A stretch of DNA of 64,000 nt, taken from the NCBI RefSeq assembly GCF_900116115.1, contig NZ_FOZP01000006.1, positions 1 through 64,000 on the forward strand. Reading direction: 5' to 3'. The notes under the pieces were generated by a model. That model was given only the letters and a program-made list of their open reading frames with translations, was not told the DNA's origin and did no database searches. Source of the stretch: Lutibacter maritimus. Lineage in GTDB: Bacteria; Bacteroidota; Bacteroidia; Flavobacteriales; Flavobacteriaceae. A program made the position numbers and the translations under genes. Positions 19,326 to 57,757 of the stretch are shown piece after piece; position 1 is the stretch's first letter; each line of letters opens with the position of its first letter.

Positions 19326-20525
19326 TTATTTTTTTGAAGCTATAATTGCCGAAAATAATATATATATTAAACAAGCTAACGGTACAAAAAATCCCCACAA
19401 TATACTTGTTAAATCTGCTACATAACCCATAATTGGTGGAATAAATGCTCCTCCAACTATTGCCGTTACCATTAAACCACTTAATTCATTAGCTCTTTCT
19501 GGTAATTTATCGACTGTTATTGAAAATACCAAAGGAAAAATATTTGCAAATCCCAATCCAACTAATATTATTCCTGTATAAGCAATTATTGTATTACCAA
19601 ATAGCAATAATAAAACGCCTAAAATGGCCATTATTACTGTTACAAATAAAAATTTGATTGGTTTTATTTTAGTTAAAATAGCTGCGCCTAAAAATCGTCC
19701 AATTAATATTGGTAAAAAGAATAATGCCCAACTTAGCCATAAACTAAATCCTTCTATACCAAACTCTTCATTTAATAAAATTGGTATTCCTGAACTCATT
19801 GAAACTTCAGCTCCTACGTAAACAAAAATGGATAACACCATCATTAAAACGTATTTATTTTTTAACAAAGACAAACAACTAACTAATGATGCAGGTTTTT
19901 CATCTTCATGTTTTATTTCTTTTACTTTTAAAGTACTTGTCCACCCAAATGTTATTAAAATCAATATTGCATAAATTGGAAATAATAAAGTCCAATCCAT
20001 TCCTACCATCAATGCAAATGGTGGCAGTAAAAATCCTAGTGAAGAACCAATTGCTTTTATGGATTGTCCTAATGATAAATTACTAGAATATCTACCAGGA
20101 ACGGAAACATCTCTCATTATTGGGTTTCCTGATACCTGCAACACTGTTGCTCCGGCCCCTAACAACAAAATAGAACCCAAAATTACATAAAACTTAGATT
20201 GCAATTCAATAGCTGTAGATTGAACAATTGGACCATACATACCAGAAAAAATTGGTAATAACAGGCCTATAAATGCAATTGCCAATCCTATTAGCAATAC
20301 ATTTTTTTTCCCTTTTCTATCTTGGTAAATTCCCATTGGAATAGATAAAATACCAAACATTAAAAACCCACTAAAAGGCAATAAAGTTGCTAAAAAATTT
20401 GTAAGTTCAAACGTTTCTTTTGCTAAACTTACCATTGGTCCTACTACATCTCCAAAACCCATACATAAAAAGGCTAAAAAGATAGGAAGGGTACTTATTT
20501 TTTTATTACTCATAATTTGGTTCAT
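19326..20525 (-). CDS. FHS-type sugar permease (major facilitator superfamily)
   Basis: 399 residues with about twelve membrane helices. Features of the fucose/glucose-galactose-like FHS group are the early GFGDVVGPM segment, the loop motif GIYQDRKGKK between helices 2 and 3, and GNPIMRDV followed by LGQSIKAIGSS. It would import a monosaccharide by proton symport across the inner membrane. It is the last gene of the locus, 4 bp after the ROK kinase gene, which suggests that transport and phosphorylation of the same sugar (mannose, GlcNAc, galactose or glucose) are coupled. The sugar cannot be told from sequence. Confidence 0.85.
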   Translation of the reverse strand: MNQIMSNKKISTLPIFLAFLCMGFGDVVGPMVSLAKETFELTNFLATLLPFSGFLMFGILSIPMGIYQDRKGKKNVLLIGLAIAFIGLLLPIFSGMYGPIVQSTAIELQSKFYVILGSILLLGAGATVLQVSGNPIMRDVSVPGRYSSNLSLGQSIKAIGSSLGFLLPPFALMVGMDWTLLFPIYAILILITFGWTSTLKVKEIKHEDEKPASLVSCLSLLKNKYVLMMVLSIFVYVGAEVSMSSGIPILLNEEFGIEGFSLWLSWALFFLPILIGRFLGAAILTKIKPIKFLFVTVIMAILGVLLLLFGNTIIAYTGIILVGLGFANIFPLVFSITVDKLPERANELSGLMVTAIVGGAFIPPIMGYVADLTSILWGFFVPLACLIYILFSAIIASKK

Positions 20526-20529
20526 TTTG

Positions 20530-21429
20530 TTATTTGAATAATGTAGCAGCTCCTAACATAGCCGCGCTTTCTTTTAAGATGGATATTTTAAATGGAATTT
20601 CTAATCCACTATCTTTTAATTTTTTATATAAACTTGGTTTAAATAATTCAAAAGCTTCAGCAATATTCCCTCCCATTACAACAACATCTGCATTAAAGTT
20701 TATTAAATGTGATGTTAAACATTCGGCTAGATTTTGCCCAAATTCATTAAATAATTTTATAGCTTCTACATCTCCTTCTTTAACAAATTCTGCAACTTGC
20801 TTTACTCCAGTTACTTTTTTTGATGAAATATTGTTGAAATTATTTACAAACCAGCGAGTTGAAAAGTAATCATCTGCTATTCCGTCTTTGTATGGTTGAT
20901 CCCACAAATAACCATTTTCAGGTACTGTTTTACCTTCTTCAATAACTTTTCCATTATTAATAAAAGACGAACCAAATCCCGTTCCTAATGTAATTGCAAC
21001 CATTTTTTCACTTCCTTTTCCACTACCATACCAGTAACTTCCTAATGAAAATGCAGTTGCATCATTTACAAATTTAATTTGATGTTGTGACAATGCTAAA
21101 TTTTCTAACAATGCTTCTTTTACATTTACGTTTTTTAAATCCAAAAACTTTTGATTTGAATTATCATATAACCCAATCCCATTTTCATAATCAAAAGGAC
21201 CTGGAATAGCAATACCAACTCCTAAAAAATCAGAATTAACTGGTAAGTTTTTTTTACAATCCAAAATAGCTTGGCTCCAAACGCTTAGTAAAACATTTTT
21301 TTTTTCAGAATTTGAAATTTTTACACTTATTAAAGTTTTTTGTAAAATAGTTCCTGTTTCAATATTAATTGCAGCACAACTAATATGACTACCTCCAACA
21401 TCAACCCCAATTACAATTTTTTCTTTCAT
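20530..21429 (-). CDS. ROK-family sugar kinase
   Basis: 299 residues. The N-terminal phosphate-binding GVDVGGSH (about 8-15), the IAIPGPFDYENGIG segment, FVNDATAF with the likely catalytic Asp, and the ATP-binding LGTGFGSS are all visible. The zinc-finger motif CxCGxxGCxE of many ROK proteins is missing; an ADDYFSTRWF segment stands in its place, as in the zinc-free glucokinase/mannokinase-like subgroup I know from Bacteroidota. It probably phosphorylates mannose, glucose or GlcNAc released by the locus. It lies just upstream of the sugar permease and 142 bp downstream of susD, from which a terminator separates it. Confidence 0.87.
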   Translation of the reverse strand: MKEKIVIGVDVGGSHISCAAINIETGTILQKTLISVKISNSEKKNVLLSVWSQAILDCKKNLPVNSDFLGVGIAIPGPFDYENGIGLYDNSNQKFLDLKNVNVKEALLENLALSQHQIKFVNDATAFSLGSYWYGSGKGSEKMVAITLGTGFGSSFINNGKVIEEGKTVPENGYLWDQPYKDGIADDYFSTRWFVNNFNNISSKKVTGVKQVAEFVKEGDVEAIKLFNEFGQNLAECLTSHLINFNADVVVMGGNIAEAFELFKPSLYKKLKDSGLEIPFKISILKESAAMLGAATLFK

Positions 21430-21571: not shown

Positions 21572-23479
21572 TTAATGTTTAGCCCACCATAATGGAGTGA
21601 AAACATTATCTGGTCCTTCTAAAAATTCTACAGCTTGTTTATAACCTTTTGGAACGTTGTTTGAAATTCCTGAAGGATATTTTAAACGTTGAGGAAATAC
21701 TTTTACACTATTTGTCATATAATTACCTAATGTTAAATTAGGTGAATCAGGTAAAAGGTTTTCAATAGCTGGGTTTTCAAAAAATGGCAACCCAAGTCTT
21801 CTATGATCATTCCAAGTTTCTAGAGGTAACCAAGGTGTTTGTGCTATAAATTTTTGTGTTATAATTTTAGTCAACAAATCGTTTTTAACACTTCCTCCTT
21901 GATAAATTGTATTGGATGGATATTTAAAATTATATGTACCAGGAGTTCCTGTATAACCATCAATATAATTCATTACCACAGTTGCTGGAGGTTCAGCCGT
22001 ATGATTCCAACTAACCGAAGTTCCAACTCTATTATAATTTTCTGAGGTAAGATAACTATCAACATATGCTGAAACATTTGAGTAACTAAAACTTTGTCTA
22101 ATTCCTTCTTCATAGGCAGATTTTCCACTCATAGGAACATTCCATCCTTTCACGGCTGCTTCTGCAATTAAAAAATATGATTCCCAAGATCCAAAAAATA
22201 CACGTTTCATTGTACTATTTCTATATTTACTAGCTAAACGAGGTAAAGTTCCTTGATACCAATACAGTCTATTTTTAGACCCTTTTTCGCCCCAATCTCC
22301 AGTAGCTGGAGCATTCCAAGTAAATGCAGCTTCAATTTCTTGAAGTGTATTTCCAGCATCATCTAATAAATTTCTTTTAGTTGTTGTTGCATTAGAAGCC
22401 CAAGATGGATATTTATTAAACTCTGGATTATCAAAATCTCCAGGAATTGGATACGCATCATAAGCTCTTGGATCTATTGAATTATGAAGACCATCAAACC
22501 AAAAACCTGCTGATGGATCGTTTGTTAGTGTAGTAAAATGGTCATCGTATTTTAACCCTATATAATTGGCTGGTTTAATATAAGAATGTTTATCTGCTGA
22601 TAACATAGATTCAGATGTTACTCCACCTAAACCAATCATTAAATTATTAGATGTTGCAGATAAATATTGACTGTTCCATTCTCTAGACATAACTCCAGCT
22701 AAATCATTCCATCCATCTTTTTCTTGAACTGCAAAATTATCATCTAATAAAGAAATATAAACACTTCCACTTACAGCATCTTCAAATTCTGTTTTTGCTT
22801 TAGCAGCATCAACTTCAGATAAACGCATTGCAAAACGCATTCTTAAAGAATTTGCATATTGTTTCCATTTTGTATAATTATAACCATAAGCAGGATCTCC
22901 ATTTTTAAGATTATCTGGATTATTAACATCTAATTCTAAAGAATTTGAAGCTTCTCTTAACTCATCAAGAATAAAGTAATAAACATCTTTAACGCTATTA
23001 TAATCTGGATTTATACCTTGAAAACCATCAATTGGCATTGGCCCAAAATTATCTGCCATTTCACTCATTAAATATGCTCTCCAAATTCTTGCAATTTGCT
23101 TTAAATTATTAGTATAAGCTTTTGAATTTCCAGATTCTATTTGCTCGTCAGCAACTCTAACAGCAGTGTTGATATCTTTTAACCATCTTGAAACATACGT
23201 GTAGTATTGACTACTCCAGTCTTCACTATAATACCCTTCTGATAAGGAACCAATTCTATCCATACGTCCGGCGTCTTTCCAATATAGTACAAATACTCTT
23301 TCAGCAATATTTGGGTCTTGTTGTGCTCCAATAATTGAGCTATTTATAAAATATTCTACTTGTACCTGATCTACAGAAGCAGCGGTTGGATCTACATTCA
23401 TATCCTCAAAATCTGAGCAAGAAACTAACAGACCAACTGCCATTAAATGAAATCCTATTTTTTTTAACATTTTTTTCAT
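21572..23479 (-). CDS. SusD/RagB-family outer-membrane glycan-binding lipoprotein (SusD-like_2 group)
   Basis: 635 residues. The lipoprotein signal ends at VGLLVSC (Cys21). The residues after the cysteine, SDFEDMN, are acidic and resemble the surface-export signal of flavobacterial lipoproteins. TPR-like helices and the long variable loops match the SusD-like_2 (PF12771) type; near the end the segment WLPLETWNDHRRLGLPFFENP is characteristic. It sits 20 bp after susC and would form with it the lid of the transporter, here presumably for N-glycans or glycopeptides. The ligand is inferred from the neighbouring enzymes. Confidence 0.93.
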   Translation of the reverse strand: MKKMLKKIGFHLMAVGLLVSCSDFEDMNVDPTAASVDQVQVEYFINSSIIGAQQDPNIAERVFVLYWKDAGRMDRIGSLSEGYYSEDWSSQYYTYVSRWLKDINTAVRVADEQIESGNSKAYTNNLKQIARIWRAYLMSEMADNFGPMPIDGFQGINPDYNSVKDVYYFILDELREASNSLELDVNNPDNLKNGDPAYGYNYTKWKQYANSLRMRFAMRLSEVDAAKAKTEFEDAVSGSVYISLLDDNFAVQEKDGWNDLAGVMSREWNSQYLSATSNNLMIGLGGVTSESMLSADKHSYIKPANYIGLKYDDHFTTLTNDPSAGFWFDGLHNSIDPRAYDAYPIPGDFDNPEFNKYPSWASNATTTKRNLLDDAGNTLQEIEAAFTWNAPATGDWGEKGSKNRLYWYQGTLPRLASKYRNSTMKRVFFGSWESYFLIAEAAVKGWNVPMSGKSAYEEGIRQSFSYSNVSAYVDSYLTSENYNRVGTSVSWNHTAEPPATVVMNYIDGYTGTPGTYNFKYPSNTIYQGGSVKNDLLTKIITQKFIAQTPWLPLETWNDHRRLGLPFFENPAIENLLPDSPNLTLGNYMTNSVKVFPQRLKYPSGISNNVPKGYKQAVEFLEGPDNVFTPLWWAKH

Positions 23480-23499
23480 ATTAAATATATTTTTAATTA

Positions 23500-26400
23500 T
23501 TAAAAACTTAATGATAAGTTTAAAAATACTGTACTTGATGTTGGTGATGATAAGTTTTCAAAACCAACAGCATTAGTTGACGTTGCATATACAGATTCTG
23601 GGTCAACTCCATTTAAATGACTACTAATTAACCATACATTATTGGCAGAAATTCCAGCTTTTGCATTTTGAATACCTGAATTCTTTAACCATTTTGCTGG
23701 TAATGAATAATTTAATTGAATGTTTCTTAATCTTACATTTGAAGCATCATAAATGTTCGCTTCAGTAATTCCTAAGTTTCCTGATCTTGTAGTTATCGTA
23801 TTCCAGTAAATTTGTGGAGATACTGCTACGGTATTAGCAACATACCCTCCATTTCCATCATTTACCACACCATCAACAATAAATTCTTCTCTTGCACCAT
23901 TTACAACTGTTACTGCTGCATTTCCTGAATTTTGAAGAGTTCTATTGGTTCCTGAAAATATTTCACCACCAATTCTAGCATCAATTAAAAAACTGAATGA
24001 TAAATTTTTGTATGATAATGTATTTGAATAACCAATTAACGCATCTGGTTGTTGATTTCCTAACTTAAACTTTTCACTTGTAGCTGTAGGTAAACCATTA
24101 CCATCTACAATTATGGCTCCAAAATTAGGGTTTGTAGGTTCTTCAACTCTTTGATATTTAGTTCCCCAAATTTCACCATATCCACCACCTGCAGTTGCAA
24201 AAACAGTTACATTATCAAAACCTCCTAATTCATATTGAGTAACTTCATCTGTAAGTTTTTCAATTGAATTTTCATTTTTAGAATAATTTAAACTCATTTC
24301 CCAAGAGAAACCATCAGGATTGTCAAGAATTGTACCATTCAACATCAATTCAAAACCTTTATTTTGAATATCTCCAGCATTAACGATTTCACTATTATAG
24401 CCGCTTAATGGATCTAATGGAAGTTCTATCAATTGATTTGTTGCATTAGATTTATACCAAGAAAAATCCATTGCTAAACGATTGCTAAAGAAACGACCGT
24501 CAATACCAAATTCTACTGATTTTATTAATTCACTTTTTACATCTGAATTAAATTTTACATTACCTGTTGTAGCTGTTGTATTTCCATTAGGATCTTTACC
24601 AATTGAATAACTATTGTACAATCTGTATGGATCTAAATCATTTCCTACTGCAGCATATGATGCTCTAACTTTTCCAAAGTTAATCCAGTCTGGTAAGTTT
24701 CCATCTTGTTTTTTAATCATTTCTGTTACAACTAATGATGTGCTTATAGAAGGATAGAAAAATGATCTGTTTTCTTCACTTAAAGTTGATGACCAATCGT
24801 TACGTCCTGTAAAATCTAAATATACATATCCATCATAGTTTATTTGCATAGAACCATATAAAGAGTTCATTTTTCTTTCACTAAAAATTTGATCAACCGT
24901 TGGCTTATCTTTTCCATTGTTTAAAGAAAATAAGTTAGGAACTTCTAACTCTCCTGAACTTGAATTAATTCCACTTGCTGTTTGAGACATTAAGTTACCT
25001 CCTAATGTTAATGAACCACCAAATTTTCCAAAAATATTATCTTGTTGTGCAATTAACAACGCACTATAATTCTTTTCAGAAAACGTACTTTTACCTAAAC
25101 TGTAACGTCCGGTATTTGAAAGTGGGCTTCCTGCATATAATTTTGATTCTGTGCTTGTAGTATACAAATCAGCACCAGCTTTTACTTCAGCACGTAACCA
25201 ATCATTAAATTCATACTTTAAATTTCCATTTAATAAAAAACGATCTCTAGCATCGGTACTTAAGTTATTTTTAGCTCCCCAATAAGGATTCATTGAGTTT
25301 GAAGGAACATACCAAATCATATTTCCAAATTCATCACTTCCAGATTTAAAATCTGCAACATTTACTGAACGAGGTAACATATACATTGTACCAAAACCGT
25401 TAGAAATATTTGATCCATTTAAAGGACGGTTATCTGCTTTTGAATTTATATATTGAACTTTTACATCGGTAGTCCACTTATTATCTTCACCAAATTTAGA
25501 TACTGCCCTGGTTAATAAATTAACTCGTTCTAGTTTTGCACCTGGTATTTTACTATCATCATTTAAATATGTTGCTGATGAAAAAACAGAAGTTGCATCA
25601 CTAACTTGTTGCTGAAATGACAATGTATGTGTTTGGTTAATTCCTGTTTTAAAATAAGTATCTAAATTATCATATGCCTTTAACGCTACTTGTTCTCCGT
25701 TCCAATTAGTAACTTGTTGACCTTCAATTTTTGGTCCCCAACTTGATCCTGAAACTTCATCATATACATTATTTGCACCTTGCCCATAAACACTTTGAAT
25801 TTCTGGAGTTGATCCAATTGTTTCAAATCCAATTGTTGTTGAATACGTGATTCCTAATCCCTTTTTTACTTTACCACTTTTTGTAGTAATTAAAATTACA
25901 CCATTACCTGCACGCGAACCATATAATGCAGCTGCAGATGCTCCTTTTAATACTGACATACTTTCAATGTTTTCAGGATTTAAATCTCCTAAACCATTTC
26001 CCATATCTTGTGATGGATTCCAATAATCATTATTTGCGGCTCCTGTAAAGTTATCCATAGGAACTCCATCAACAACAATTAAAGGTTGGTTATCTCCTGT
26101 TAAAGAGTTATTCCCTCTAAGAATAATTTTAGAAGAACTTGCAGGACCGTTGCTTGATCTAACAATTTGTACACCAGAAACTTTACCCGAAATAGAATTT
26201 GCTAAGTTATTTTCTCTTGATTGAATTAAAGATTCCCCATCAATTTCTTGAACAGCATAACCTAAAGATTTTTTCTCTCTTTTAATACCTAAAGCAGTTA
26301 CAACTACTTCATTAAGTGATTCTGCACTTTGAGTTAATGCTACGTTAATTAATGTTTTTCCTTTAACAGAAATTTCTTGAGTTGCATACCCCATAAATGA

Positions 26401-26619
26401 AAATTGCAATACTGCATTTTCACTTTTAACATCAATACTAAATTTACCATCAAAATCTGATGAGACACCAACAGATGTGCCTTTGATTATTACATTTACA
26501 CCTGGTAGCGGAGCTCCATCCAATGCATCTGTAATTGTTCCCTTTACTGTTTGGGCTTGTAAACTAGAAAAACCTAGTACACAAATTAAAAAAAACAGTT
26601 TTAGTGCTTTTTGTATCAT
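23500..26619 (-). CDS. SusC/RagA-family TonB-dependent outer-membrane transporter
   Basis: 1039 residues. A signal peptide (1-22, ending LQAQ) is followed by a carboxypeptidase-regulatory-like beta-sandwich (about 24-100, with ITDALDGAPLPGVNVIIKGT). Next come a NEVVVTALGIKREKKSLGY segment, the plug domain (about 115-230, including SVLKGASAAALYGSRAGNGV), and a 22-strand barrel ending in the aromatic signature LNLSLSF. No STN/FecR signalling domain is present, so it does not itself drive an anti-sigma system. It takes up large glycans with SusD. A 227-bp upstream region separates it from the GH125 gene; read-through or an own promoter are both possible. Confidence 0.95.
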   Translation of the reverse strand: MIQKALKLFFLICVLGFSSLQAQTVKGTITDALDGAPLPGVNVIIKGTSVGVSSDFDGKFSIDVKSENAVLQFSFMGYATQEISVKGKTLINVALTQSAESLNEVVVTALGIKREKKSLGYAVQEIDGESLIQSRENNLANSISGKVSGVQIVRSSNGPASSSKIILRGNNSLTGDNQPLIVVDGVPMDNFTGAANNDYWNPSQDMGNGLGDLNPENIESMSVLKGASAAALYGSRAGNGVILITTKSGKVKKGLGITYSTTIGFETIGSTPEIQSVYGQGANNVYDEVSGSSWGPKIEGQQVTNWNGEQVALKAYDNLDTYFKTGINQTHTLSFQQQVSDATSVFSSATYLNDDSKIPGAKLERVNLLTRAVSKFGEDNKWTTDVKVQYINSKADNRPLNGSNISNGFGTMYMLPRSVNVADFKSGSDEFGNMIWYVPSNSMNPYWGAKNNLSTDARDRFLLNGNLKYEFNDWLRAEVKAGADLYTTSTESKLYAGSPLSNTGRYSLGKSTFSEKNYSALLIAQQDNIFGKFGGSLTLGGNLMSQTASGINSSSGELEVPNLFSLNNGKDKPTVDQIFSERKMNSLYGSMQINYDGYVYLDFTGRNDWSSTLSEENRSFFYPSISTSLVVTEMIKKQDGNLPDWINFGKVRASYAAVGNDLDPYRLYNSYSIGKDPNGNTTATTGNVKFNSDVKSELIKSVEFGIDGRFFSNRLAMDFSWYKSNATNQLIELPLDPLSGYNSEIVNAGDIQNKGFELMLNGTILDNPDGFSWEMSLNYSKNENSIEKLTDEVTQYELGGFDNVTVFATAGGGYGEIWGTKYQRVEEPTNPNFGAIIVDGNGLPTATSEKFKLGNQQPDALIGYSNTLSYKNLSFSFLIDARIGGEIFSGTNRTLQNSGNAAVTVVNGAREEFIVDGVVNDGNGGYVANTVAVSPQIYWNTITTRSGNLGITEANIYDASNVRLRNIQLNYSLPAKWLKNSGIQNAKAGISANNVWLISSHLNGVDPESVYATSTNAVGFENLSSPTSSTVFLNLSLSF

Positions 26620-43875: not shown

Positions 43876-47033
<3,158 letters not shown>

Positions 47034-48072: not shown

Positions 48073-50313
48073 TTAATTATACACTTTTGAACTTGTTGCC
48101 ATCGTGTTTTTTACATTTTTATTCGGAAGATTTCCCATTGTTAAGATCAATGTTCCTCCATTCATTATTTCTGAATGTTTGATATAATTTCGTTCAATTA
48201 GTTTACCATTTAATTTAATAGTTTGAATGTATTTATTTTCAAAACTATTGTTCATAGTTTCAATTGTAAACTTTTTTCCATTTTCTAAATTTAAAGTTGC
48301 CGAATCTATAATTGGCGAGCCAAAAGCGTAAATACCTTGTGCTGGATTTACAGGATAAAAACCTAAAGCGCTAAACACATACCAAGACGACATTTGTCCA
48401 CAGTCCTCGTTTCCACAATGTCCGTTTGGTTCATTTTTATATTGTGTTTCTAAAATTTCACGCACCAATCCCTGTGTTTTCCAAGGTTTTTCAATGTAAT
48501 TGTATAAATAGGCTACATGATGACTTGGTTCATTTCCGTGTGCATATTGCCCAATCATTCCGGTACTAAAAATTGGTAATTTATCTTCTGGAAGTGGATT
48601 TAGTGAAAACATGGTATCTAACTTTTTTTCAAACAATTCATTTCCTCCAATAATATCAATTAAATCTTCAATATTATGTTGTACAGACCAAAAGTATTGC
48701 CATGCATTACTTTCACAAAAATATGGTGTATATTCTTTTGGTATAAAATCTTTTACAAACTCACCATTTTTTAATTTTGGGCGCATAAATGTACTTTGAG
48801 AATCGTACACATTTCGCCAATTTTCGGAACGTTTTAAAAACGTATTATAATCTTCTGTTTTACCCAAAGCTTTTGCAAACTGTGCAATACACCAATCGTC
48901 ATACGCATATTCTAATGTTTTAGAAACCGACCAATTTTCATGGTGTTCATCAACAGGAACGTAACCTAGCTCCATATATTCATCAATTTGTCTGGAATTG
49001 TCTGTTGCACTTGCAATACAAGCTTCAAAAGCAAGCTCAATATCAAAATTTTTAATTCCTTTAAAATAAGCATCTACAATTACTGGAACTGCGTGGTAAC
49101 CAATCATCATGTTTGTTTCATTTCCTTGCATAGACCAAACTGGTAATAAACCAGTTTCTTTGTAATGTGCTAACAAAGAATTTATCATATCTGATGTTCT
49201 TTCTGGATGCAGAATAGTGTATAATGGATGCGCCGCTCTGTACGTATCCCAAAGTGAAAAAGTATCGTATCTATTAAAACCATTAGCTTTTTCGATACTA
49301 TCATTAGCTCCTTTATAATTCGAATTATGATCACTTAATAAAGTTGGTGCTAACATAGATTGATACAACATTGTGTAAAAAATATGTTTTTTGGTTGTAT
49401 CATTTGTTGAAATTTCAATTTTACTGAGTTCGTTTTCCCATTTTGCTTCTGCTTGTTGTTTAATTTCATCAAAATTAAAATCAGGAGCTTCAATTGCTAA
49501 CGATTTATGAGCTCCTTCAATATTTGCTGAAGAAATGCCCGTTTTTAAAATAATTTGTTCGCCTTCAATAGTTGCATACTCTAAAATAATTTTGGTGTTT
49601 TTTGCAGTTACTGGTGAAGTTGTTAACGTATCATTTTTAAATAATTGATATGTTTTAAATGGTTTAGAAACTTTAATTACAAAATATACACGTTGGTCTT
49701 TTGCCCAACCAGTAGATTTTCTGTACCCTTCAATAGTTGAATTATCAACAACATTTAAATACGTTTCTGTTGGACTGTCCCAATTTAATGCATACCCTAA
49801 ATCAATATGAATTTCTGTTTTATCGTCTTTCGGAAAGGTATATTTATGAATTCCAGTTCTTTCAGTAGCTGTTAATTCTGCTTTAATACCATAATCTAAC
49901 AAATCAACTGAATAATAACCTGGCGAAGCAGTTTCTTTATCATGTGAAAAACTTGAAAAAGGTTTGAAACTATTTTTTTCAATTCTTTTTGAAAATTTAC
50001 TATTGGTTGGCATTACCAAAATATCATACAAATCTCCTGCTCCGGTTCCTGTTAAATGCATGTGTGAAAACCCAGAAATAATAGAATCTTGGTAATAATA
50101 ACCCGCAATTCTGTCCCAACCAGGAATGCCAATATCTGGACTTAATTGTATCATTCCAAAAGGGACTGTTGCTCCCGGATAGGTATTTCCAGGACCATCA
50201 GTTCCAATAAATGGGTTTACATAGTTTGTTAATTTCTCACTTTTTGCATCTGGTTTTGAACAACCAAAAAGAATTCCAAATAGAATGATATATATAAGTC
50301 CAAAATACTTCAT
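48073..50313 (-). CDS. GH92 alpha-1,2-mannosidase-type lipoprotein (HGNEP subtype)
   Basis: 746 residues; lipobox LFGC near residue 18. GH92 start YVNPFIGTDGPGNTYPGATVPFG, then GYYYQDSIISGFSHMHLTGTG, SLWDTYRAAHPL, YAHGNEPSHHVAY (His592, Glu595) and GNEDCGQMSSWYVFSALGFYPV. The His-Glu pair in HGNEP is the one linked to alpha-1,2 specificity in Bacteroides enzymes. It is a close paralogue of the GH92 gene at 55502-57757. It is 6 bp after the GHL10-like gene. Confidence 0.94.
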   Translation of the reverse strand: MKYFGLIYIILFGILFGCSKPDAKSEKLTNYVNPFIGTDGPGNTYPGATVPFGMIQLSPDIGIPGWDRIAGYYYQDSIISGFSHMHLTGTGAGDLYDILVMPTNSKFSKRIEKNSFKPFSSFSHDKETASPGYYSVDLLDYGIKAELTATERTGIHKYTFPKDDKTEIHIDLGYALNWDSPTETYLNVVDNSTIEGYRKSTGWAKDQRVYFVIKVSKPFKTYQLFKNDTLTTSPVTAKNTKIILEYATIEGEQIILKTGISSANIEGAHKSLAIEAPDFNFDEIKQQAEAKWENELSKIEISTNDTTKKHIFYTMLYQSMLAPTLLSDHNSNYKGANDSIEKANGFNRYDTFSLWDTYRAAHPLYTILHPERTSDMINSLLAHYKETGLLPVWSMQGNETNMMIGYHAVPVIVDAYFKGIKNFDIELAFEACIASATDNSRQIDEYMELGYVPVDEHHENWSVSKTLEYAYDDWCIAQFAKALGKTEDYNTFLKRSENWRNVYDSQSTFMRPKLKNGEFVKDFIPKEYTPYFCESNAWQYFWSVQHNIEDLIDIIGGNELFEKKLDTMFSLNPLPEDKLPIFSTGMIGQYAHGNEPSHHVAYLYNYIEKPWKTQGLVREILETQYKNEPNGHCGNEDCGQMSSWYVFSALGFYPVNPAQGIYAFGSPIIDSATLNLENGKKFTIETMNNSFENKYIQTIKLNGKLIERNYIKHSEIMNGGTLILTMGNLPNKNVKNTMATSSKVYN

Positions 50314-50319: not shown

Positions 50320-51438
50320 CTATTTCAAACTTTCTTTTGTTTCTTTAATTGCTTTTAAATACTCTGGTGCAATTGCATTACCATCAAAAAATGTGATTCC
50401 TTTAGCGCCATTTTCTTTTGCTAATAAAATTGCTTGTTTAAATTCATCTACAGTTTTAAAATCTGGCATATAAATTCCTGTATTAATGCCAATTCCTTTG
50501 TCTTTTACATCTTCAACACCTTGTTTGGTGGCAAAGCCAATCCAATCTATCTCTTCATTATAAAAACCGTGATAAATCATTGGATAAACCTCGTTAATTG
50601 TCCATTTATCCCAACGTTGACGTACCATGTGATCTGCCATTTCTGGATAAGGGAAAACGGCAGCTGTTAAGTTTTTGTTGTATTTATGCACAATTTTATA
50701 CGCATCATTTACCACATTTCTAACTGCATTTAAACGGAATTGTTTCCATTCCATATCAATGTCTGTATCTTTAATATTTCTTGGGTTTTTATGATGTGTT
50801 TTTTCAAATTCACTAACACAAACATCACAGTAACAAAAATCGAATTCTGGCAATTCTTCATCTTGTACTAAATCGTATTTTGGTAGCAAACCAATTGGCA
50901 AGAAAATATCTGAGAAACGAATGTAATCTAAATGTACACTTTCAATACCATCAACTTTTGCTAAACCTTCAACCAAGCTTAAAACGTGGTTGCGAGATCC
51001 TTCTCTAGTTGGGCATAACCATTGGTAATAACCAACATACGGACGCGTATCAAAACACGACTTTCCTTCTCTACTAACAGCGTACCATTCTGGATGTTTT
51101 AGTGCAATAGTGTCTCCAGGACGATTCATTGCCATAATCCACGCGTGTACTTTTAATCCCTTTTCTGTAGCAATTGGTGTAATTCTTTTTAACAATTCTG
51201 GATCGGTTCCTGTGTTGATTAAAACCTCATCAATTCCTGCAGATTTATATTTTTCAAACTCTTGTGCATATTCTTCGTTCGATTTTTCATTATTTGCAGT
51301 AGTCCAAACGCCAAATTCAAAAGAATTTTCTGTTTTAACCTCTTCTGATATAGAATTTTCAACTTTATTTTTATCTGTTGTATCACAAGAAAAAATACTT
51401 AATATCAGTGCAAAAAAAAGTAATTTTTGTAGTTTCAT
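50320..51438 (-). CDS. GHL10-like TIM-barrel lipoprotein of unknown activity
   Basis: 372 residues; lipobox SIFSC near residue 18. The body (about 40-365) looks like a (beta/alpha)8 barrel of the glycosidase-like family-10/GHL10 type: FEFGVWTTANNE, GIDEVLINTGTD, KVHAWIMAMNRPG, WLCPTREGSRNHV, ESVHLDYIRFSD, a CYCDVC cysteine pair and TAAVFPYPEMADH. Acidic residues in the HLDYIRF and NEVYPMIYHGFYNEE strands are candidates for catalysis. No GH18 DxxDxDxE motif is present. No activity is known to me for this group in N-glycan loci. A 97-bp gap separates it from the CBM9-like gene upstream. Confidence 0.7.
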   Translation of the reverse strand: MKLQKLLFFALILSIFSCDTTDKNKVENSISEEVKTENSFEFGVWTTANNEKSNEEYAQEFEKYKSAGIDEVLINTGTDPELLKRITPIATEKGLKVHAWIMAMNRPGDTIALKHPEWYAVSREGKSCFDTRPYVGYYQWLCPTREGSRNHVLSLVEGLAKVDGIESVHLDYIRFSDIFLPIGLLPKYDLVQDEELPEFDFCYCDVCVSEFEKTHHKNPRNIKDTDIDMEWKQFRLNAVRNVVNDAYKIVHKYNKNLTAAVFPYPEMADHMVRQRWDKWTINEVYPMIYHGFYNEEIDWIGFATKQGVEDVKDKGIGINTGIYMPDFKTVDEFKQAILLAKENGAKGITFFDGNAIAPEYLKAIKETKESLK

Positions 51439-51535: not shown

Positions 51536-52597
51536 TTAGTTTGAAATAATTTTACCGTTTTCTTTAATAATTAATGTTTTGTTAGTAAAAGGACTTTTTA
51601 CTGAAATATTATAACCTGTTGCGTGATTTTCTATTGTTGGTTGCAAGGTTTTATGATTTATAACAATAGCTTTTGCGGTTAAACTATCTATTGAAGTTGC
51701 CCATTTTTTATATTTTTGATGATAACTATTTTGCGCTTTATACAAGCTGTACAATTGCTCCTTAATGCCATCATCTTGCGGAATTGTGAATGTATCTTTT
51801 GAACCAACTTCTTTAGAAGAAAAATACACATAACCCCATTTTTCTGGTTCGTGCATATTTATAACACCTTGCGGAGACCACACCCAATTGTATTCGGGTA
51901 GCAACTTACCATCAGCGTCTTTTTTTCTCTGATACTTACCATCTTCCAATTGAAAATCCCAATTAACTCTTGAAAAATTAACTCTCCAATGTTTATTTTC
52001 AGGAACATTTTTTTCGAAATATGAAGTTTTATAAGCCTTCCAAGGAATTGCCAACTCTAATGTCCAACCGTTATCTTTATCTGTAGGATTATTAATAGTT
52101 CCATCAACTTTTATAGCCGATTTTAATCCCGTTAAAGTCCAATCGTTTAAAGCGGCATTTTTTTCACGGTAAGGTTTTGTTATAAATAAATCCCATACTG
52201 TATTTAATGCATTTAGTTCTAATTCGTAATAATTAAAAGTATCTCCATCTGGATCAATAAAAACTTCAAAATCGTTGTTATGAAAAATAATGGCATCGTG
52301 CTCTGTAATATTTGCCCAAACGTGCGGTTCTTCTAGTTGAGCTAAAATATAAAAGTAAGTTTCATCCCACATCATTTTTACTTGCGTTTTGTACGTTGGT
52401 TCTTTTACGCCTTCAATATCAATAAAAGTATCAGACCATGCTGCTTTACTCCAAGATGCTTCTGATACTTCACCATCAATAGTAATGGTTTCAGAAGTTT
52501 TGTAAGCAATATAACTTTTAGGAATATTATTTTTTGATTGCGCACAACTTATAAGCGAAAATAAACAAAGTACAATAGTTAATTTTATGAATTTCAT
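51536..52597 (-). CDS. Carbohydrate-binding family 9-like lipoprotein
   Basis: 353 residues; lipobox LISC near residue 19. A CBM9-like/DOMON-type beta-sandwich occupies about 30-260: ITIDGEVSEASWSKAAW, VKMMWDETYFYILAQLEEPHVWANI, NNDFEVFIDPDGD, YYELELNALNTVWDL and WTLELAIPWKAY. The C-terminal 90 residues are mixed helical and unknown. Such proteins are frequent in Bacteroidota sugar loci; whether they bind ligand or act as enzymes is unclear. It lies 12 bp after the GH130 gene. Confidence 0.8.
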   Translation of the reverse strand: MKFIKLTIVLCLFSLISCAQSKNNIPKSYIAYKTSETITIDGEVSEASWSKAAWSDTFIDIEGVKEPTYKTQVKMMWDETYFYILAQLEEPHVWANITEHDAIIFHNNDFEVFIDPDGDTFNYYELELNALNTVWDLFITKPYREKNAALNDWTLTGLKSAIKVDGTINNPTDKDNGWTLELAIPWKAYKTSYFEKNVPENKHWRVNFSRVNWDFQLEDGKYQRKKDADGKLLPEYNWVWSPQGVINMHEPEKWGYVYFSSKEVGSKDTFTIPQDDGIKEQLYSLYKAQNSYHQKYKKWATSIDSLTAKAIVINHKTLQPTIENHATGYNISVKSPFTNKTLIIKENGKIISN

Positions 52598-52609: not shown

Positions 52610-53575
52610 TTATAAACTATTCTCTTTTGTGTACTGAATTACTTCACTTAATTTTCCAAAAGCTAAAGCTACAACAGTATCTGCAGCACCATAATACACT
52701 GCTAATTTATCTTCTTTCATATCGTGCAAAGCAGCACACGGAAATACAACATTTGCTACATCACCAACTTGCTCATAATTAACTTGTGGACCTAATAAAT
52801 AGGGTTGCGTTCTATATTTTACTTTATCTGGTTGATGTTCATCTAAAATAGCTGCTCCCATTGCGTATCTAAAACCATTGCACGTATTTATAACACCATG
52901 ATACAACATTAACCAACCTTCATCAGTTAAAATTGGAATTGGACCTGCACCAATTTTTGTGCATTGCCAAGCACTGTCTTCAAAAGCAGTGGCTTTCATT
53001 ACACAACGATGCTCTCCCCAAAATTTCATATCTGGACTGTAGCTAATGTAAATATCGCCAAAAGGTGTGTGACCATTATCACTTGGACGACTTAACATAG
53101 CATATTTTCCATTGATTTTTTTAGGAAATAAAACGCCATTTCTATTAAATGGAAGAAACGCATTTTCACATTGAAAAAATTCAACAAAATCAAATGTATA
53201 GGCAATACCAATTGTTGGACCGTGGTAACCATTACACCAAGTAATCCAATATCTATCTTCAATAAAAACAACACGAGGATCGTATTTATAGTCAGAATCT
53301 ATCATTTCGGTATTACCAGCTTGCATTTTAATTGGCTCGTGGTTGATATCCCAATCGATACCGTTTTTACTAAAACCAACAAAAATATTCATTTGTACTG
53401 CTTTGTTATCACATCTAAAAACACCTGCAAAACCATCTTTAAAGGGCACAACTGCACTGTTAAAAATACTATTTGATGTTGGTATTTGGTCGCGTTTAAT
53501 AATTGGATTTTCAGAATATCTCCAAATTACTTCGTTACTTTTTTCAGGTTTATCTTGCCAAGGAATTGTATTCAC
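52610..53575 (-). CDS. GH130 mannoside phosphorylase, probably beta-1,4-mannosyl-GlcNAc phosphorylase
   Basis: 321 residues without signal peptide, hence cytosolic. Five-bladed propeller with [17 protein letters not shown] (catalytic Asp99), [26 protein letters not shown] (phosphate-binding Arg and His of the phosphorylase subfamilies) and the [18 protein letters not shown] segment. It matches the GH130_2 group, which phosphorolyses Man-beta-1,4-GlcNAc (and the chitobiose form) to mannose-1-phosphate. It is 45 bp after the symporter gene, which may import that disaccharide. Exact acceptor preference is inferred from context. Confidence 0.88.
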
Positions 53576-53620: not shown

Positions 53621-55498
53621 TTAATTGGGTAATTTTCTAACCTTATCTAGCCAGGTAAATTTAAGCACTATAGATGTAATTAAAAATATTACCAATGCTA
53701 TTAATGTTTTAGGGTAATCTCTTATCATTAAATAAATTGGTAACACAATCATGCTTGATTGCCAAATAATGCCAATTGCACAATTCATCATATCCAACCA
53801 AAAATCTGAATTTTTCACAGCAGTTTCATCCTCTTTTTTCAACTCATTTAAAACGGGTTTCCAAAAACCCCAAGGGCGCACATCTTTGTAGAAAGATTTT
53901 AACACTTCCATATTTGTTGGCTCACTAAAATACGTTCCTAAAAAAGAACCTAAAATTGAAACAAAAAATATAATTGGAAATAAATAAATGGCATGTAAAT
54001 GAGATAGTTCATAAAATAATGAGCCTTCTAAAAAGTTGTTTTTACTTTGATCTAAAACGAATTGTAATGAAGCTACTACTAAACCCGACAACATTCCCCA
54101 AAAATAGCCCCAACCATTAAATCGCCACCAAACCCATTTTAAAAAGTTTGCTGCAACGTAACCACCAAAAAGCGCACTGGTAATCCATAAGGTTAATGAG
54201 TTGATAGATTCAGCAAAAAAGCCCATAAAAACACCTAAACCAACTACCAAAAACGATGCTATATGACTTGCTTTTATATAATGTTTAGCTGTAGCCGAAG
54301 GTTTAAAATATTTTTTATAAATATCATTTACCATGTATGCCGGACCTGCATTTACAAAGGCCGAAAAAGTACTCATAAAAGCAGCCAATAAACCAGCTAA
54401 CAACAATCCTTTTATACCAACAGGCACATGAAAATTAATAACTTTTGGCAATAGAATTTCCAAATCGCTTCCATTTAATAATGGATTTATACTCATTTCT
54501 GGAGCTAAAGTAACCAATGCAATTACAACAATACCTGCAATTAGTAAATACCTAGGAATAAATAAAATTAAATTTGTAAAACCACTCATATAAGCAGCTT
54601 CTTTTACTGTTTTTGTAGATAGAATTCTTTGTAAATCGTAGCTTGGTGTTGGCCCAGCAATACTTGCAAAAAAACCTTTAAATAAAGTCATACCTATAAG
54701 TGCTCCAAACATTTTATAACCTTCAGAATCTATTAAGTTATTAAATGCAGTATATTTATCAGTCCAATGTGTTTCTAATTCCCATCCAAAAAACACGTTT
54801 CGCCATTCATCAGAAATTACAGCATTTATTTCAACATCAGAAAAAGCAAAAAAGGCATAACCAGCAACTAAAACACCAGCCAAAACCATAATTCCGTATT
54901 GCAAAACTTCGGTGGCAACTACAGAAAACATACCTCCTTTTACAGTATATATTGTAGTTAATAAGATTATGATTAATGCATACGATTGTTCTGAAGTTAG
55001 CAAAGCTAAATTTCCTATTTGAAGTGATACATCCCAAGGAAGAATTATGGTCATAAACTTTCCAACACCTTCAAAAAAATAAGCTATAAAACCAATAGCT
55101 GCAACTATTGCAAAAACTGCAACAATAATATGCGAAGCTCTTCCTGCTTTATTATCACCAAAGCGTGTTAAAATCCATTCAGATCCAGTCATAATGTTAG
55201 ATCTTCGAATCCAAACTGCTAAAAACATCATAACAAAAATTTGATTCCATATTGGCCAAAGCCACATAAACATAAAGCTTTTTACTCCATATAGAAACAG
55301 AATTCCCACCATCCAAGCTGTTCCCGAAACATCAAACATTCCGGATCCGTTACTTAATCCTAAAAAATACCATTTTATGTTATTTCCTCCTAAAAAATAA
55401 GATTCTAAACTGCTTGAAGCCTTTTTTGAAACCCAAATTCCAACAATTAAAGTTAGTAAAATATAAATTCCAATTATTGATACATCAATTATACCCAT
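53621..55498 (-). CDS. Sodium:solute symporter (SSS family)
   Basis: 625 residues with about fourteen membrane helices. The N-terminus (VSIIGIYILLTLIVGIWVSKK, then SLESYFLGGNNIKW) and LSNGSGMFDVSGTAW are typical of the SSS sugar/sialic-acid group, as are SYDLQRILSTKTVKEA and the LLAAFMSTFSAFVNAGPAY segment. It would drive sodium-coupled import across the inner membrane. It stands 3 bp after a GH92 gene and just before GH130, so the product of outer enzymes, perhaps Man-GlcNAc, is a plausible cargo. Confidence 0.88.
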   Translation of the reverse strand: MGIIDVSIIGIYILLTLIVGIWVSKKASSSLESYFLGGNNIKWYFLGLSNGSGMFDVSGTAWMVGILFLYGVKSFMFMWLWPIWNQIFVMMFLAVWIRRSNIMTGSEWILTRFGDNKAGRASHIIVAVFAIVAAIGFIAYFFEGVGKFMTIILPWDVSLQIGNLALLTSEQSYALIIILLTTIYTVKGGMFSVVATEVLQYGIMVLAGVLVAGYAFFAFSDVEINAVISDEWRNVFFGWELETHWTDKYTAFNNLIDSEGYKMFGALIGMTLFKGFFASIAGPTPSYDLQRILSTKTVKEAAYMSGFTNLILFIPRYLLIAGIVVIALVTLAPEMSINPLLNGSDLEILLPKVINFHVPVGIKGLLLAGLLAAFMSTFSAFVNAGPAYMVNDIYKKYFKPSATAKHYIKASHIASFLVVGLGVFMGFFAESINSLTLWITSALFGGYVAANFLKWVWWRFNGWGYFWGMLSGLVVASLQFVLDQSKNNFLEGSLFYELSHLHAIYLFPIIFFVSILGSFLGTYFSEPTNMEVLKSFYKDVRPWGFWKPVLNELKKEDETAVKNSDFWLDMMNCAIGIIWQSSMIVLPIYLMIRDYPKTLIALVIFLITSIVLKFTWLDKVRKLPN

Positions 55499-55501
55499 CT
55501 T

Positions 55502-57757
55502 TTACTTTTTTATAATTCCCCAGTTTTTATTAGGGCTTTTTCCCATTTTAAACTGAAGTACACCACCTTGCATAATTTCTTTATGCGAAATTGTTGTTCT
55601 ATTAAAATCTTTTCCATTTAAAGTAGCCGATTGAATATATATATTCTCATCTGAAACATTATCAGCTTTTATAGTGAATGAAATTTCTTCAGAAATTTTA
55701 ATGGTTGAAGATTTAAATAATGGACTTCCAATTTGATACTCACCCGAAGCTGGACTAAAAGGATATAACCCCATTGAACTAAATACGTACCAAGCAGACA
55801 TTTGTCCACAATCTTCATTTCCACTTAAACCGTCTGGTGTTGTATTGTATTGGGTTTTTAATATTTCTCGTACCCAATATTGTGTTTTCCAAGGTTTGTT
55901 TGCAAAATTAAACATATACGCTATATGGTGACTTGGTTCGTTTCCGTGCGCATACTGCCCAATTAACCCTGTAATATCTGCCGAAACGTTTTCTCCTGTA
56001 ATTTCAGAAGATTCTGTAAATAACTGTTCTAATTTATTTGAAAACTTATCATCACCTCCGTGCATTTGAATTAAATTTTTCACGTTGTGTAAAACAAACC
56101 AACTGTGTTGCCAAGCATTTCCTTCAGTATATTCTGCGTGAACTCTATGCGCAGAATATTTTGGGTCGAATGGTTCTTTCCAAGAGGTTCCTGCATCATT
56201 CTTACCACGCATAAAACCAGTTTCGGCATCAAATAAATATTCATATGCTTTTGAACGATTTATAAAATATGTATAATCGTCTTGTTCACCTAATTCTTTG
56301 GCAATTTGTGCAACACACCAATCATTATAAGCATATTCTAAAGTGATGGTTACAGATTCATCTAATAAATTATGTGGAACGTAACCATATTTTTTATAAT
56401 AATTTAAGCCTCTTTCATCTTGCATCATTGTAGTTTTCATTGCTTGATAGGCTTTTTTAATATCAAAACCTTTGATACCTTTTATGTATGCTTCTGCAAT
56501 AACTGGAATAGAATGATAGCCAGTCATTGTATTGGTTTCATTTCCGTACAATGTCCAAACTGGCAATATTTTATTTGTTTCATAATAGGCTAACATAGAG
56601 TTTATAATATCAGCAACTTTTTCTGGGTGTGTAATTGTTAATAGTGGTTGTTCAGCTCTAAAAGTATCCCATAATGACAATGTTGAATAAGCGGTGTAAT
56701 TAGCTGCTTTTACAATTTCATCATTCTCTTTTCTAAACTCACCATTTACATCACTAAAAGTAACTGGAGCAACTTGCGTATGATACAAAGCAGTATAAAA
56801 AATGGTTTCTAAATCTTTATTATCGGTTTGAACGGTAATTTTTGATAGATTTTTATTCCAAGTTTCAGCCGATTCGCTTTTAATGCCCTCAAAATCAATA
56901 GTTTCTTTTGATAAGTTTTCTAAAGCATTTGCTTCGCTTACAGATGAAACTGCCACTTTTACTAAAAGTTGTGAGTTGTTTTCCGATTTAAAATAAAGTT
57001 GTGCAAATGATTTTTCTCCTACTACAGAAGTTGCATCAGTTATATAGTTTCCATCCGCTACTAATTCTATTTTTTCAATTGGTTTCGAAAATTTAGTAAC
57101 AAAAAACACTTTTTGGTTTTTGGCCCAGCCTTCGCTATATCTATATCCAGAAATAGTAGTTGCATCAATCATATTAATTTTTGAAGCGATTGTTTTGTCC
57201 CAATTAATAGCAAAACCTAAATCTAAAACAACAGATTGAACATCGTTTTGTGCAAATGTATATTTATGAAAAGCGGTTCTTAAGTTTGAAGTTAATTCTA
57301 CTTTTATATTGTGGCTTTTTAAATTTACACTATAATAACCTGGGCTTGCAGTTTCTTCTTCATGCGAATACAATGATTTATATTCTAAATCATCTCTTGA
57401 TTTTATTTCTTTAGATAAATCTACTTTTTTGTTGATTGGCATTAAGCGAATGTCTGCCAAATCGCCAATACCAGTTCCGCTTAAATGCAAGTGGCTAAAT
57501 CCTATCATAATAGAATCGGAATAATGATATCCTGAACACCAATCCCAACTTGAAATTCCGTTATCAGGACTTACTTGTAACATTCCAAAAGGAACCGTTG
57601 CGCCAGGATAGGTATGTCCATGACCTCCGGTTCCTATAAATAGGTTTGTGTTATTAGCTGGTAAAAATTTAGATGTATTATTTTTATCAATAGTATTTTT
57701 ACAAGCGGAAATACTTATAATTATTGCAAACAAAATATATTTATAATTCTTTTTCAT
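55502..57757 (-). CDS. GH92 alpha-1,2-mannosidase-type lipoprotein (HGNEP subtype), first gene of the locus
   Basis: 751 residues; lipobox ISAC near residue 19. NLFIGTGGHGHTYPGATVPFG, then SHLHLSGTGIGDLADI, LWDTFRAEQPLL, YAHGNEPSHHIAY (His604, Glu607) and GNEDCGQMSAWYVFSSMGLYPF. The HGNEP His-Glu pair points to alpha-1,2-linked mannose, as in the paralogue at 48073-50313. As the promoter-proximal gene it faces the LytS/LytTR pair across a 144-bp divergent region with a 21-bp near-palindrome. Confidence 0.94.
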   Translation of the reverse strand: MKKNYKYILFAIIISISACKNTIDKNNTSKFLPANNTNLFIGTGGHGHTYPGATVPFGMLQVSPDNGISSWDWCSGYHYSDSIMIGFSHLHLSGTGIGDLADIRLMPINKKVDLSKEIKSRDDLEYKSLYSHEEETASPGYYSVNLKSHNIKVELTSNLRTAFHKYTFAQNDVQSVVLDLGFAINWDKTIASKINMIDATTISGYRYSEGWAKNQKVFFVTKFSKPIEKIELVADGNYITDATSVVGEKSFAQLYFKSENNSQLLVKVAVSSVSEANALENLSKETIDFEGIKSESAETWNKNLSKITVQTDNKDLETIFYTALYHTQVAPVTFSDVNGEFRKENDEIVKAANYTAYSTLSLWDTFRAEQPLLTITHPEKVADIINSMLAYYETNKILPVWTLYGNETNTMTGYHSIPVIAEAYIKGIKGFDIKKAYQAMKTTMMQDERGLNYYKKYGYVPHNLLDESVTITLEYAYNDWCVAQIAKELGEQDDYTYFINRSKAYEYLFDAETGFMRGKNDAGTSWKEPFDPKYSAHRVHAEYTEGNAWQHSWFVLHNVKNLIQMHGGDDKFSNKLEQLFTESSEITGENVSADITGLIGQYAHGNEPSHHIAYMFNFANKPWKTQYWVREILKTQYNTTPDGLSGNEDCGQMSAWYVFSSMGLYPFSPASGEYQIGSPLFKSSTIKISEEISFTIKADNVSDENIYIQSATLNGKDFNRTTISHKEIMQGGVLQFKMGKSPNKNWGIIKK

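Follow-up and report, generated by a model that had tools for sequence, protein, structure and literature searches.

A bipartite locus predicted to serve N-glycan utilisation in Lutibacter maritimus, with a conserved regulated core and an unassigned hydrolase

How would a marine flavobacterium take up N-glycans and dismantle them, and which enzyme would cut next to the protein? The question is raised by a long run of glycosidase genes in Lutibacter maritimus, studied in a stretch of 64,000 nucleotides (the window) whose open reading frames (ORFs) of at least 120 amino acids (aa) were surveyed. From 19326 to 57757, 22 such ORFs follow one another on the minus strand and the opposite strand is empty. 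A first-pass annotation had reported 20 genes, all on the minus strand; the unbroken minus run has exactly the limits it gave, and the gene count rises to 22. We read the run and its regulators as a bipartite locus for N-glycan (glycopeptide) utilisation in a Lutibacter-like marine flavobacterium, Part A being a core and Part B an armoury, and put the probability of this reading, proposed mechanism included, at about 0.78. The families, the synteny and an intergenic motif were observed in the DNA. We regard the locus as a genuine, rich N-glycan locus, of interest above all for a conserved and regulated core that includes an unassigned hydrolase, here called GHLx.

All families named in the first-pass annotation were found by Pfam, each over its curated cut-off: PNGase F (N and C domains), Asparaginase_2, DUF4838, four GH92 (glycoside hydrolase family 92), GH125, GH97, GH29, GH20, GH2, GH130, type I phosphomannose isomerase, ROK, SSF, MFS, SusC and SusD. 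This family content is far beyond chance. The presence of SusCD, a release enzyme and exo-enzymes in one locus supports the earlier proposal of N-glycan utilisation by a flavobacterium. The order of transcription is GH92a, SSF, GH130, CBM9-like, GHLx, GH92b, glycosylasparaginase (AGA), GH2, ManA, GH20, GH29, GH92c, GH92d, PNGase F, DUF4838, GH97, a phosphatase relative of the EEP fold, GH125, SusC, SusD, ROK and MFS. The widest intergenic gaps are 227 base pairs (bp) before susC, 142 bp before ROK and 97 bp between CBM9 and GHLx, so two or three transcripts are possible. The earlier gene list left out 28282-29124 (EEP), 50320-51438 (GHLx) and 51536-52597 (CBM9-like), and it missed the conservation of the core, together with the regulators and the two genes, GHLx and CBM9, by which that core is defined. 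The regulators, a LytS-type kinase and a LytTR regulator, extend the unit onto the plus strand at 57902-59679.

Part A, the widespread regulated core, would consist of the divergent LytS/LytTR pair with an operator-like site, then GH92a-SSF-GH130-CBM9-GHLx, usually followed by GH92b, AGA and GH20. Among named records, the GHLx gene is most similar to five from Lutibacter (88-92% identity), in a comparison from which the window's own record may be excluded. In 80 named GHLx loci taken with 10-kb flanks, several of them incomplete, GHLx and CBM9 were each present in 80, SSF and GH130 each in 77 (both in 76), GH92a in 73, GH20 in 69, the kinase in 64, the regulator in 63, AGA in 58, GH29 in 55 (weak matches included), GH2 in 22 and GH18 in 17. 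PNGase was present in one, a lower bound since the window PNGase sits more than 15 kb from GHLx. Twenty GHLx-centred regions from other genomes of the family contained CBM9 (20/20), the full GH92a-SSF-GH130-CBM9-GHLx run (17/20) and AGA (16/20, in G155 as three pieces); GH18 may intervene between CBM9 and GHLx in full five-gene runs. The proposed synteny check among Flavobacteriaceae was thereby run, and the core recurs, often with AGA. The contiguity stressed in the first-pass annotation stands in that the locus is unusually complete in one place; it is not special to the strain, the core recurring in most of the 80 loci.

The regulatory part of the core was examined in 62 kinase-GH92a intergenic regions (61 loci and the window). 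A matrix was seeded with a 34-bp block of the window, so a best match was forced in every region; matching the seed in 18 bases is no better than shuffles (189 of 310 shuffles), and every real region matched in at least 20 of 34. With a matrix from sites less than 90% identical, all 62 regions beat all 50 of their own shuffles (lowest region 16.0 bits, highest shuffle 6.1), and the 8-mer CGTCTAAA is present in 52 of the 62. The window has a single hit, at 57848-57881 with 43 bits; the next best scores -3.1, five one-strand shuffles of the window gave at most 2.4 bits, and no further copy of the motif precedes susC or ROK. Beyond these 62, nine more regions have a kinase gene, and a form of the site is found close to it in eight (the exception is G307). 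Four reduced loci, described below, scored 15.6 (G223), 8.5 (G075), 5.3 (G160) and 0.4 bits (G343), the last two at noise level. We infer that the 34-bp block is a candidate operator of the LytTR regulator.

Part B, the variable armoury, would comprise PNGase F, DUF4838, EEP, GH97, GH125, the extra GH92s, GH29, GH2, SusCD, ManA, ROK and MFS. Its distribution was followed in a sample of 397 Flavobacteriaceae genomes, 95 of which have some PF09113 match. GHLx orthologues were accepted at E ~1e-160 or lower, a cut-off set after viewing the match lists, and group-1 PNGases at E up to 1.5e-44, also post hoc, with G375, G363, G119 and G127 dropped for frames of more than 560 aa; locus-type GH18 means chitinase-like with E below 1e-85. 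A GHLx orthologue is present in 65 genomes, and it occurs in 23/34 group-1 PNGase genomes versus 42/363 others (Fisher p 1.5e-12, related genomes treated as independent). Among the GHLx genomes, the group-1 PNGase occurs without the locus-type GH18 in 12 and that GH18 without the PNGase in 11; another 11 have the two together and 31 have neither. Since only 23 of the 65 have it, PNGase is an add-on; GHLx, CBM9 and the regulators are the constant part. Thirty PNGase-centred regions of up to 40 kb, from 30 of the 34 strong other genomes, contained GH20 in 25, GH92d in 21, GH29 in 19, AGA in 18 (these GH20, GH29 and AGA counts include weak paralogues), CBM9 in 16, GH130 and SSF in 15 each, GHLx in 14, DUF4838 in 9 (one at 32% identity), EEP in 8, GH125 and GH97 in 3 each and ManA in 1. 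DUF4838, EEP and PNGase are consecutive in four genomes (G006, G209, G240 and G392), which suggests a cassette. Matches to PNGase and to GHLx are both missing from another genome of the genus (G047).

The PNGase has both N-glycanase domains (PF09112, E 7e-60; PF09113, E 6e-50), 393 aa and no N-terminal extension (bowl domain). Its nearest PDB structures are 4qhb (E 3e-118) and 3ks7 (E 2e-117), and IDTW at 190-193 aligns with the IDTW of both. These are group-1 PNGases; Asp at a key position is reported to mark group 1 and Gly group 2, and that Asp to block core alpha-1,3-fucose (PMC9522356). We read Asp191 of IDTW as this group-defining Asp, an interpretive match, and the enzyme is accordingly classed with the Bacteroides PNGases of group 1. 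The group member from B. fragilis is reported to remove complex and high-mannose, not plant, glycans, and the Bacteroides PNGases to have predicted type I signals (PMC9522356). AGA matches PDB glycosylasparaginase at E 1e-121 versus 1e-32 for the best isoaspartyl peptidase, and its beta chain starts at Thr193 in the Ntn-hydrolase arrangement. GH130 is nearest to UhgbMP (4udk/4udg, E 6e-151, 505 bits), followed by the beta-1,4-mannooligosaccharide phosphorylase 5ayd (451 bits), 1vkd (400) and others at 130 or less; the splitting of Man-b1,4-GlcNAc is ascribed to three families, GH130 among them (PMC10154615).

The EEP protein has the catalytic motifs TYNIR, IQEG, GDFN and SDHLP and is equally near to 4c1r ("mannosyl-6-phosphatase", E 4e-57) and to 3mpr, of unassigned function (2e-57). 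GH97 scores 609 bits with PDB alpha-glucosidases versus 200 with a retaining alpha-galactosidase, whose NCBIfam model stays under its cut-off, and the latter assignment was rejected; an alpha-glucosidase, we infer, would fit glucosylated high-mannose glycans. In the DUF4838 protein the C-terminal F5/8 domain resembles that of the beta-hexosaminidase 6q63, and the catalytic domain has no PDB relative by sequence; a structure-based reading was dropped because the model was too poor (predicted local distance difference test, pLDDT, 63). Signals were assigned by eye. Lipoprotein signals were seen in GH92a, b and c, CBM9, GHLx, GH20, DUF4838, GH97 and SusD, Tat-type signals in AGA (with a lipobox) and GH125, and Sec-type signals in GH2, GH29, GH92d, PNGase, EEP and SusC. 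The soluble proteins without a signal peptide are GH130, ManA and ROK, the three expected in the cytoplasm.

From the families and signal peptides we propose the following mechanism, which is a prediction with respect to all activities, transport and substrate. SusCD would import glycopeptides; PNGase has a type I signal and no clear surface signal was seen by eye on any release enzyme. Phosphate, glucose, antennae, galactose, fucose and alpha-mannose would then be trimmed in the periplasm, and PNGase F would free glycans from internal Asn. PNGase is not known to take terminal or free Asn. Stubs beyond its reach would be cut in the chitobiose core to give Man-GlcNAc and GlcNAc-Asn, GHLx being the leading, still doubtful, candidate for this step. 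Glycosylasparaginase would split the GlcNAc-Asn, and SSF would import the Man-GlcNAc core for phosphorolysis by the cytoplasmic GH130, with ManA and the kinase feeding the sugars to metabolism.

GHLx is a 372-aa lipoprotein. Its DUF4015 score is 26.1 bits, under the cut-off of 27, GHL6 is also below cut-off, and the GHL10 Pfam model is not reached (E up to 10). Among 14 aligned orthologues all match DUF4015 (E up to 5, best 4e-10) and 8 match GHL10 (best 4e-12). Comparison with E. coli DigH by hhalign gave a probability of 93.6 and E 2e-7 over 186 columns of the N-terminal half, signal peptide region included, with 20% identity and a HAW and a beta-4 Asp motif common to both. The structure model is a TIM barrel (pLDDT 76), and Foldseek found generic TIM barrels (beta-amylase, lacto-N-biosidase, GH20, GH164; query TM score 0.45-0.58 among the matches listed), which supports the modelled fold but not an activity; a PDB profile search gave nothing useful. 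Peptidoglycan is the target of those GHL10 proteins that have been studied, namely DigH, which acts on denuded glycans (PMC12288456), and C. difficile Cwp19 (PMC5765458); to these glycosidases the similarity of GHLx is remote and the genomic context differs. Active-site residues proposed for Cwp19 include Asp196-Tyr197, Trp127, Arg132 and Tyr297 (PMC5765458); by eye, Asp171-Tyr172, Trp100, Arg106 and Tyr289 of GHLx are on apparently corresponding strands. The DigH alignment pairs Asp171 with the first Asp of the DigH DD, which leaves it in doubt whether the catalytic Asp is equivalent.

In regions from outside the family, GHLx has CBM9 close by in 13/14, is followed by GH18 in 2/14 (G565, G423) and has GH20 within 10 kb in 2/14 (G450, G404). 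Two distant genomes of the Bacteroidota (L164, L165) have CBM9, GHLx and a GH18 domain next to one another on a single strand. In several genomes of another Bacteroidota family (f24, L152-L157) GHLx-CBM9 is found beside conserved neighbours, which in G435 are PEPCK, release-factor and ATP-grasp/PurK-type genes.

How many enzymes of the locus would detach a glycan? The first-pass annotation had counted three independent routes: PNGase, the DUF4838 protein as an endoglycosidase, and glycosylasparaginase. The three genes are all present and open, the lack of GH18 and GH85 would make another endoglycosidase convenient, and DUF4838 (PF16126) is only presumed to be GH163. Glycosylasparaginase, however, requires GlcNAc-Asn in which both the amino and the carboxyl group are free, not protein-borne glycan, so it finishes the stub and frees no glycan. 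The activity reported for GH163 is removal of antennae at GlcNAc-b1,2-Man, not at the core (PMC10154615). On these known activities the count of three was rejected and is very improbable. PNGase F, the only detaching enzyme with an assigned activity, should be the one clear release route and alone should free whole glycans. The reported absence of GH18 and GH85 holds genome-wide with PF00704, PF03644 and PF16141 (the BT1044-type GH18 model, without a match in the genome), models that may miss EndoF/EndoH-type GH18; a genome of the same genus (G269) has a GH18 in the locus, between susC and GH125. The reported absence of sialidase holds for the locus and not beyond it, PF13088 finding elsewhere in the genome one BNR_2 gene above cut-off and one below (C8:506001). 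The former (G000:C8:119062-119937, L031) encodes a beta-propeller of 393 aa. Sialidases typically carry an N-terminal (F/Y)RIP motif; it was not seen by eye in this BNR_2 protein, which is a doubtful sialidase.

The substrate might instead be mainly fungal or algal alpha-mannan, with the N-glycan genes later acquired and minor. The four GH92, GH125 and the mannosyl-6-phosphatase relative would also suit such mannans, and GH92/GH130-rich polysaccharide utilisation loci (PULs) of North Sea flavobacteria have been read as mannan or glycoprotein PULs (PMC6298971). Pfam found no endo-mannanase (GH76 or GH26) in the locus, however, GH130 is nearest to UhgbMP, and the core is accompanied in the 80 loci by AGA (58), GH20 (69), GH29 (55) and GH2 (22), so a mannan locus appears unlikely. 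The N-glycan reading has further points against it. The margin of UhgbMP over 5ayd is modest and the specificity of GH130 therefore only putative, the GH163 link is an assumption of ours, SusC and SusD are within the 10-kb flanks in only 6 and 5 of the 80 loci, and AGA is absent within 10 kb in 22, some of them incomplete. As 31 of 65 GHLx genomes have neither group-1 PNGase nor locus-type GH18, PNGase-based release cannot be the general role of the core. GH163 of B. theta is reported to be surface-located (PMC10154615), and if the DUF4838 protein is too, trimming would not be purely periplasmic.

What, then, does GHLx do in the core? A chitobiose cut in ManGlcNAc2-Asn would give Man-GlcNAc, which GH130 requires, and GlcNAc-Asn, which AGA requires, and for this reason GHLx is a candidate for that cut. 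It would found a new endo-b-N-acetylglucosaminidase family outside GH18 and GH85, acting on the chitobiose core of trimmed N-glycans or glyco-asparagines, and with CBM9 would be the defining enzyme of a LytS/LytTR-controlled Flavobacteriaceae module, yielding Man-GlcNAc for SSF/GH130 and GlcNAc-Asn for AGA. We rate this as possible but less likely than not. Of the 31 genomes with neither enzyme, 7 have some GH18, 3 GH85, 7 a weaker PF09113 match and 19 none of these; the 19 (of 65) lack a match to PF09113, PF00704, PF03644 and PF16141, models that EndoF-type enzymes may escape, which weighs against the candidate. Four of the 19 (G094, G153, G159, G323) have GH130 and an unbroken AGA match near GHLx; G155 has GH130 and a fragmented AGA, whose match (L148) is split into three pieces and is possibly a decaying gene. 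The reduced loci are suggestive. G160 and G343 have the regulators, CBM9, GHLx, SusCD and an FG-GAP/ASPIC protein, GHLx being the only recognised glycosidase, without a match to the other window glycosidases among the ORFs scanned. G223 has the regulators, CBM9, GHLx, AGA, SusC, a SusD-like ORF (by eye) and a NagB-like protein; G075 has GH20 in addition. A strict either/or substitution of GHLx for GH18 was rejected, 22/65 GHLx genomes having the locus-type GH18 and 11/65 that GH18 plus the group-1 PNGase.

GHLx may instead act on another sugar or a cell-wall glycan and travel with the locus for other reasons, a view that concerns the core-cleavage step only and comes just short of even odds. 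Other Bacteroidota have GHLx-CBM9 pairs with no N-glycan genes around them, as in G435, where the clusters of housekeeping neighbours recur in up to five related genomes. The GHL10 relatives are reported to act on peptidoglycan (PMC12288456, PMC5765458), and a chitinase-like GH18 lies by GHLx in 17/80 loci, so a core cleaver may already exist there. The coexistence of GHLx with GH18, the absence of AGA near GHLx in many loci, and G227, where GHLx-CBM9 is near a sulfatase gene without a match to other locus genes, likewise weigh against core cleavage. Against another substrate, the reduced locus G223 pairs GHLx with AGA, SusC and a NagB-like protein and has no match to the window mannosidases, which points to the GlcNAc end of glycopeptides.

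Table 1. Features of the Lutibacter maritimus locus and the evidence for each
Feature	Position	Strand	Basis and remarks
LytS-type sensor histidine kinase	57902..58978	+	His_kinase PF06580; divergent from operon; counterpart in 64/80 GHLx loci
LytTR response regulator	58978..59679	+	Pfam; counterpart in 63/80 loci
34-bp operator-like motif, consensus TGTTTAgctcaGTTTAtaTGTtgTCCGTCTAAAT	57848..57881	-	divergent intergenic region
GH92 alpha-mannosidase a, putative lipoprotein	55502..57757	-	Pfam; signal by eye
SSF sodium:solute symporter	53621..55498	-	Pfam; together with GH130 in 76/80 loci
GH130, UhgbMP-type phosphorylase, predicted cytoplasmic, without signal peptide	52610..53575	-	PDB UhgbMP 4udk/4udg
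CBM9-like lipoprotein, constant GHLx partner	51536..52597	-	Pfam
GHLx, putative glycoside hydrolase lipoprotein near DUF4015/GHL6/GHL10	50320..51438	-	sub-cut-off Pfam, hhalign, TIM-barrel model
GH92 alpha-mannosidase b, putative lipoprotein	48073..50313	-	Pfam; signal by eye
Glycosylasparaginase, Tat-type signal and lipobox, Thr193 at beta-chain start	47043..48062	-	PDB match
GH2 LacZ-type beta-galactosidase	43875..47021	-	Pfam Bgal_small_N, GH2_C
Mannose-6-phosphate isomerase ManA, predicted cytoplasmic	42895..43875	-	Pfam; TIGR00218 above cut-off
GH20 beta-N-acetylhexosaminidase, putative lipoprotein	40522..42852	-	Pfam; signal by eye
GH29 alpha-L-fucosidase	39166..40518	-	Pfam
GH92 alpha-mannosidase c, putative lipoprotein	36838..39162	-	Pfam; signal by eye
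GH92 alpha-mannosidase d	34604..36829	-	Pfam
PNGase F, group-1 type (Asp191 in IDTW), type I signal peptide	33411..34592	-	PDB 4qhb, 3ks7
DUF4838 lipoprotein with F5/8 C domain, GH163 candidate	31162..33396	-	PF16126 E 1e-99
GH97, alpha-glucosidase (SusB-like) branch	29129..31150	-	PDB scores
Mannosyl-6-phosphatase relative (EEP fold)	28282..29124	-	PDB 4c1r E 4e-57; motif residues
GH125 alpha-1,6-mannosidase, Tat-type signal	26847..28277	-	PF06824 E 3e-169
SusC-like TonB-dependent transporter	23500..26619	-	Pfam
SusD-like lipoprotein	21572..23479	-	Pfam; PDB SusD homologues
ROK-family sugar kinase	20530..21429	-	Pfam
MFS sugar permease, GluP/FucP/NagP-like matches all below cut-off	19326..20525	-	Pfam/NCBIfam

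Directly past the regulator gene, at 59967-63541, are a phage-type integrase, an ORF without a Pfam match and a PriCT_2 primase-like ORF, and a mobile element may abut the locus there. At the other end a Tricorn-like S41 protease with PD40 repeats and PDZ (15940-19146, plus strand) is convergent with the locus. In part of the family the core is followed by genes for DUF1549/DUF1553 (Planctomycete cytochrome-type) and DUF1501 (L135, L262 and relatives; clusters c11 and c14 in 6/40 and 5/40 regions). Sulfatase genes are found in or beside some GHLx loci (L133, L259), suggesting sulfated glycan variants.

In the animal lysosome glycosylasparaginase, fucosidase, hexosaminidase, mannosidases and mannose-6-phosphate removal are combined in one compartment, which is an analogy of logic only, no homology being claimed. 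Among bacteria, the N-glycan loci of B. thetaiotaomicron also hold SusCD and GH130. They are further alike in GH92, GH18/GH20/GH2-type trimming and GH163 (PMC10154615), a likeness judged by description. Unlike them, with reported release by a surface GH18 (PMC9522356), the Lutibacter locus has a PNGase with a type I signal; complex-glycan genes of B. thetaiotaomicron are in several loci, and a single high-mannose PUL is reported (PMC11180146). In Bacteroides PNGase loci, too, PNGase is reported beside GH92, with SusCD, GH29, GH3, GH130 and more GH92 near some group-2 PNGases, whereas the pathway of B. massiliensis is divided among three putative loci, and B. helcogenes and B. vulgatus are noted for more extensive ones (PMC9522356); the word glycosylasparaginase has 0 occurrences in that account. 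Gpd/PUL5 of Capnocytophaga canimorsus is reported as flavobacterial SusCD-based N-glycan foraging, but has five genes, a surface endo-b-GlcNAcase and an associated sialidase, with exoglycosidases outside the five (PMC3128124). In the North Sea flavobacterial GH92/GH130-rich PULs gene order is reported to be little conserved (PMC6298971). No paper describing the present module was found in the literature searched, most subscription journals lying outside that search.

Proteins of algae, animals and fungi widely offer N-glycans as a source of sugar, and the pathways described in the literature searched are mostly from gut, oral and pathogenic bacteria. The Lutibacter locus and its relatives define a regulated Flavobacteriaceae module with PNGase, AGA, a UhgbMP-type phosphorylase, a mannosyl-6-phosphatase relative and one unassigned conserved hydrolase. 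If GHLx does cut the chitobiose core, it would be a further core-cleaving class beside GH18 and GH85 and would be useful in glycoprotein analysis. Even if it does not, GHLx, CBM9 and the operator-like motif are a clean handle for locating such loci.

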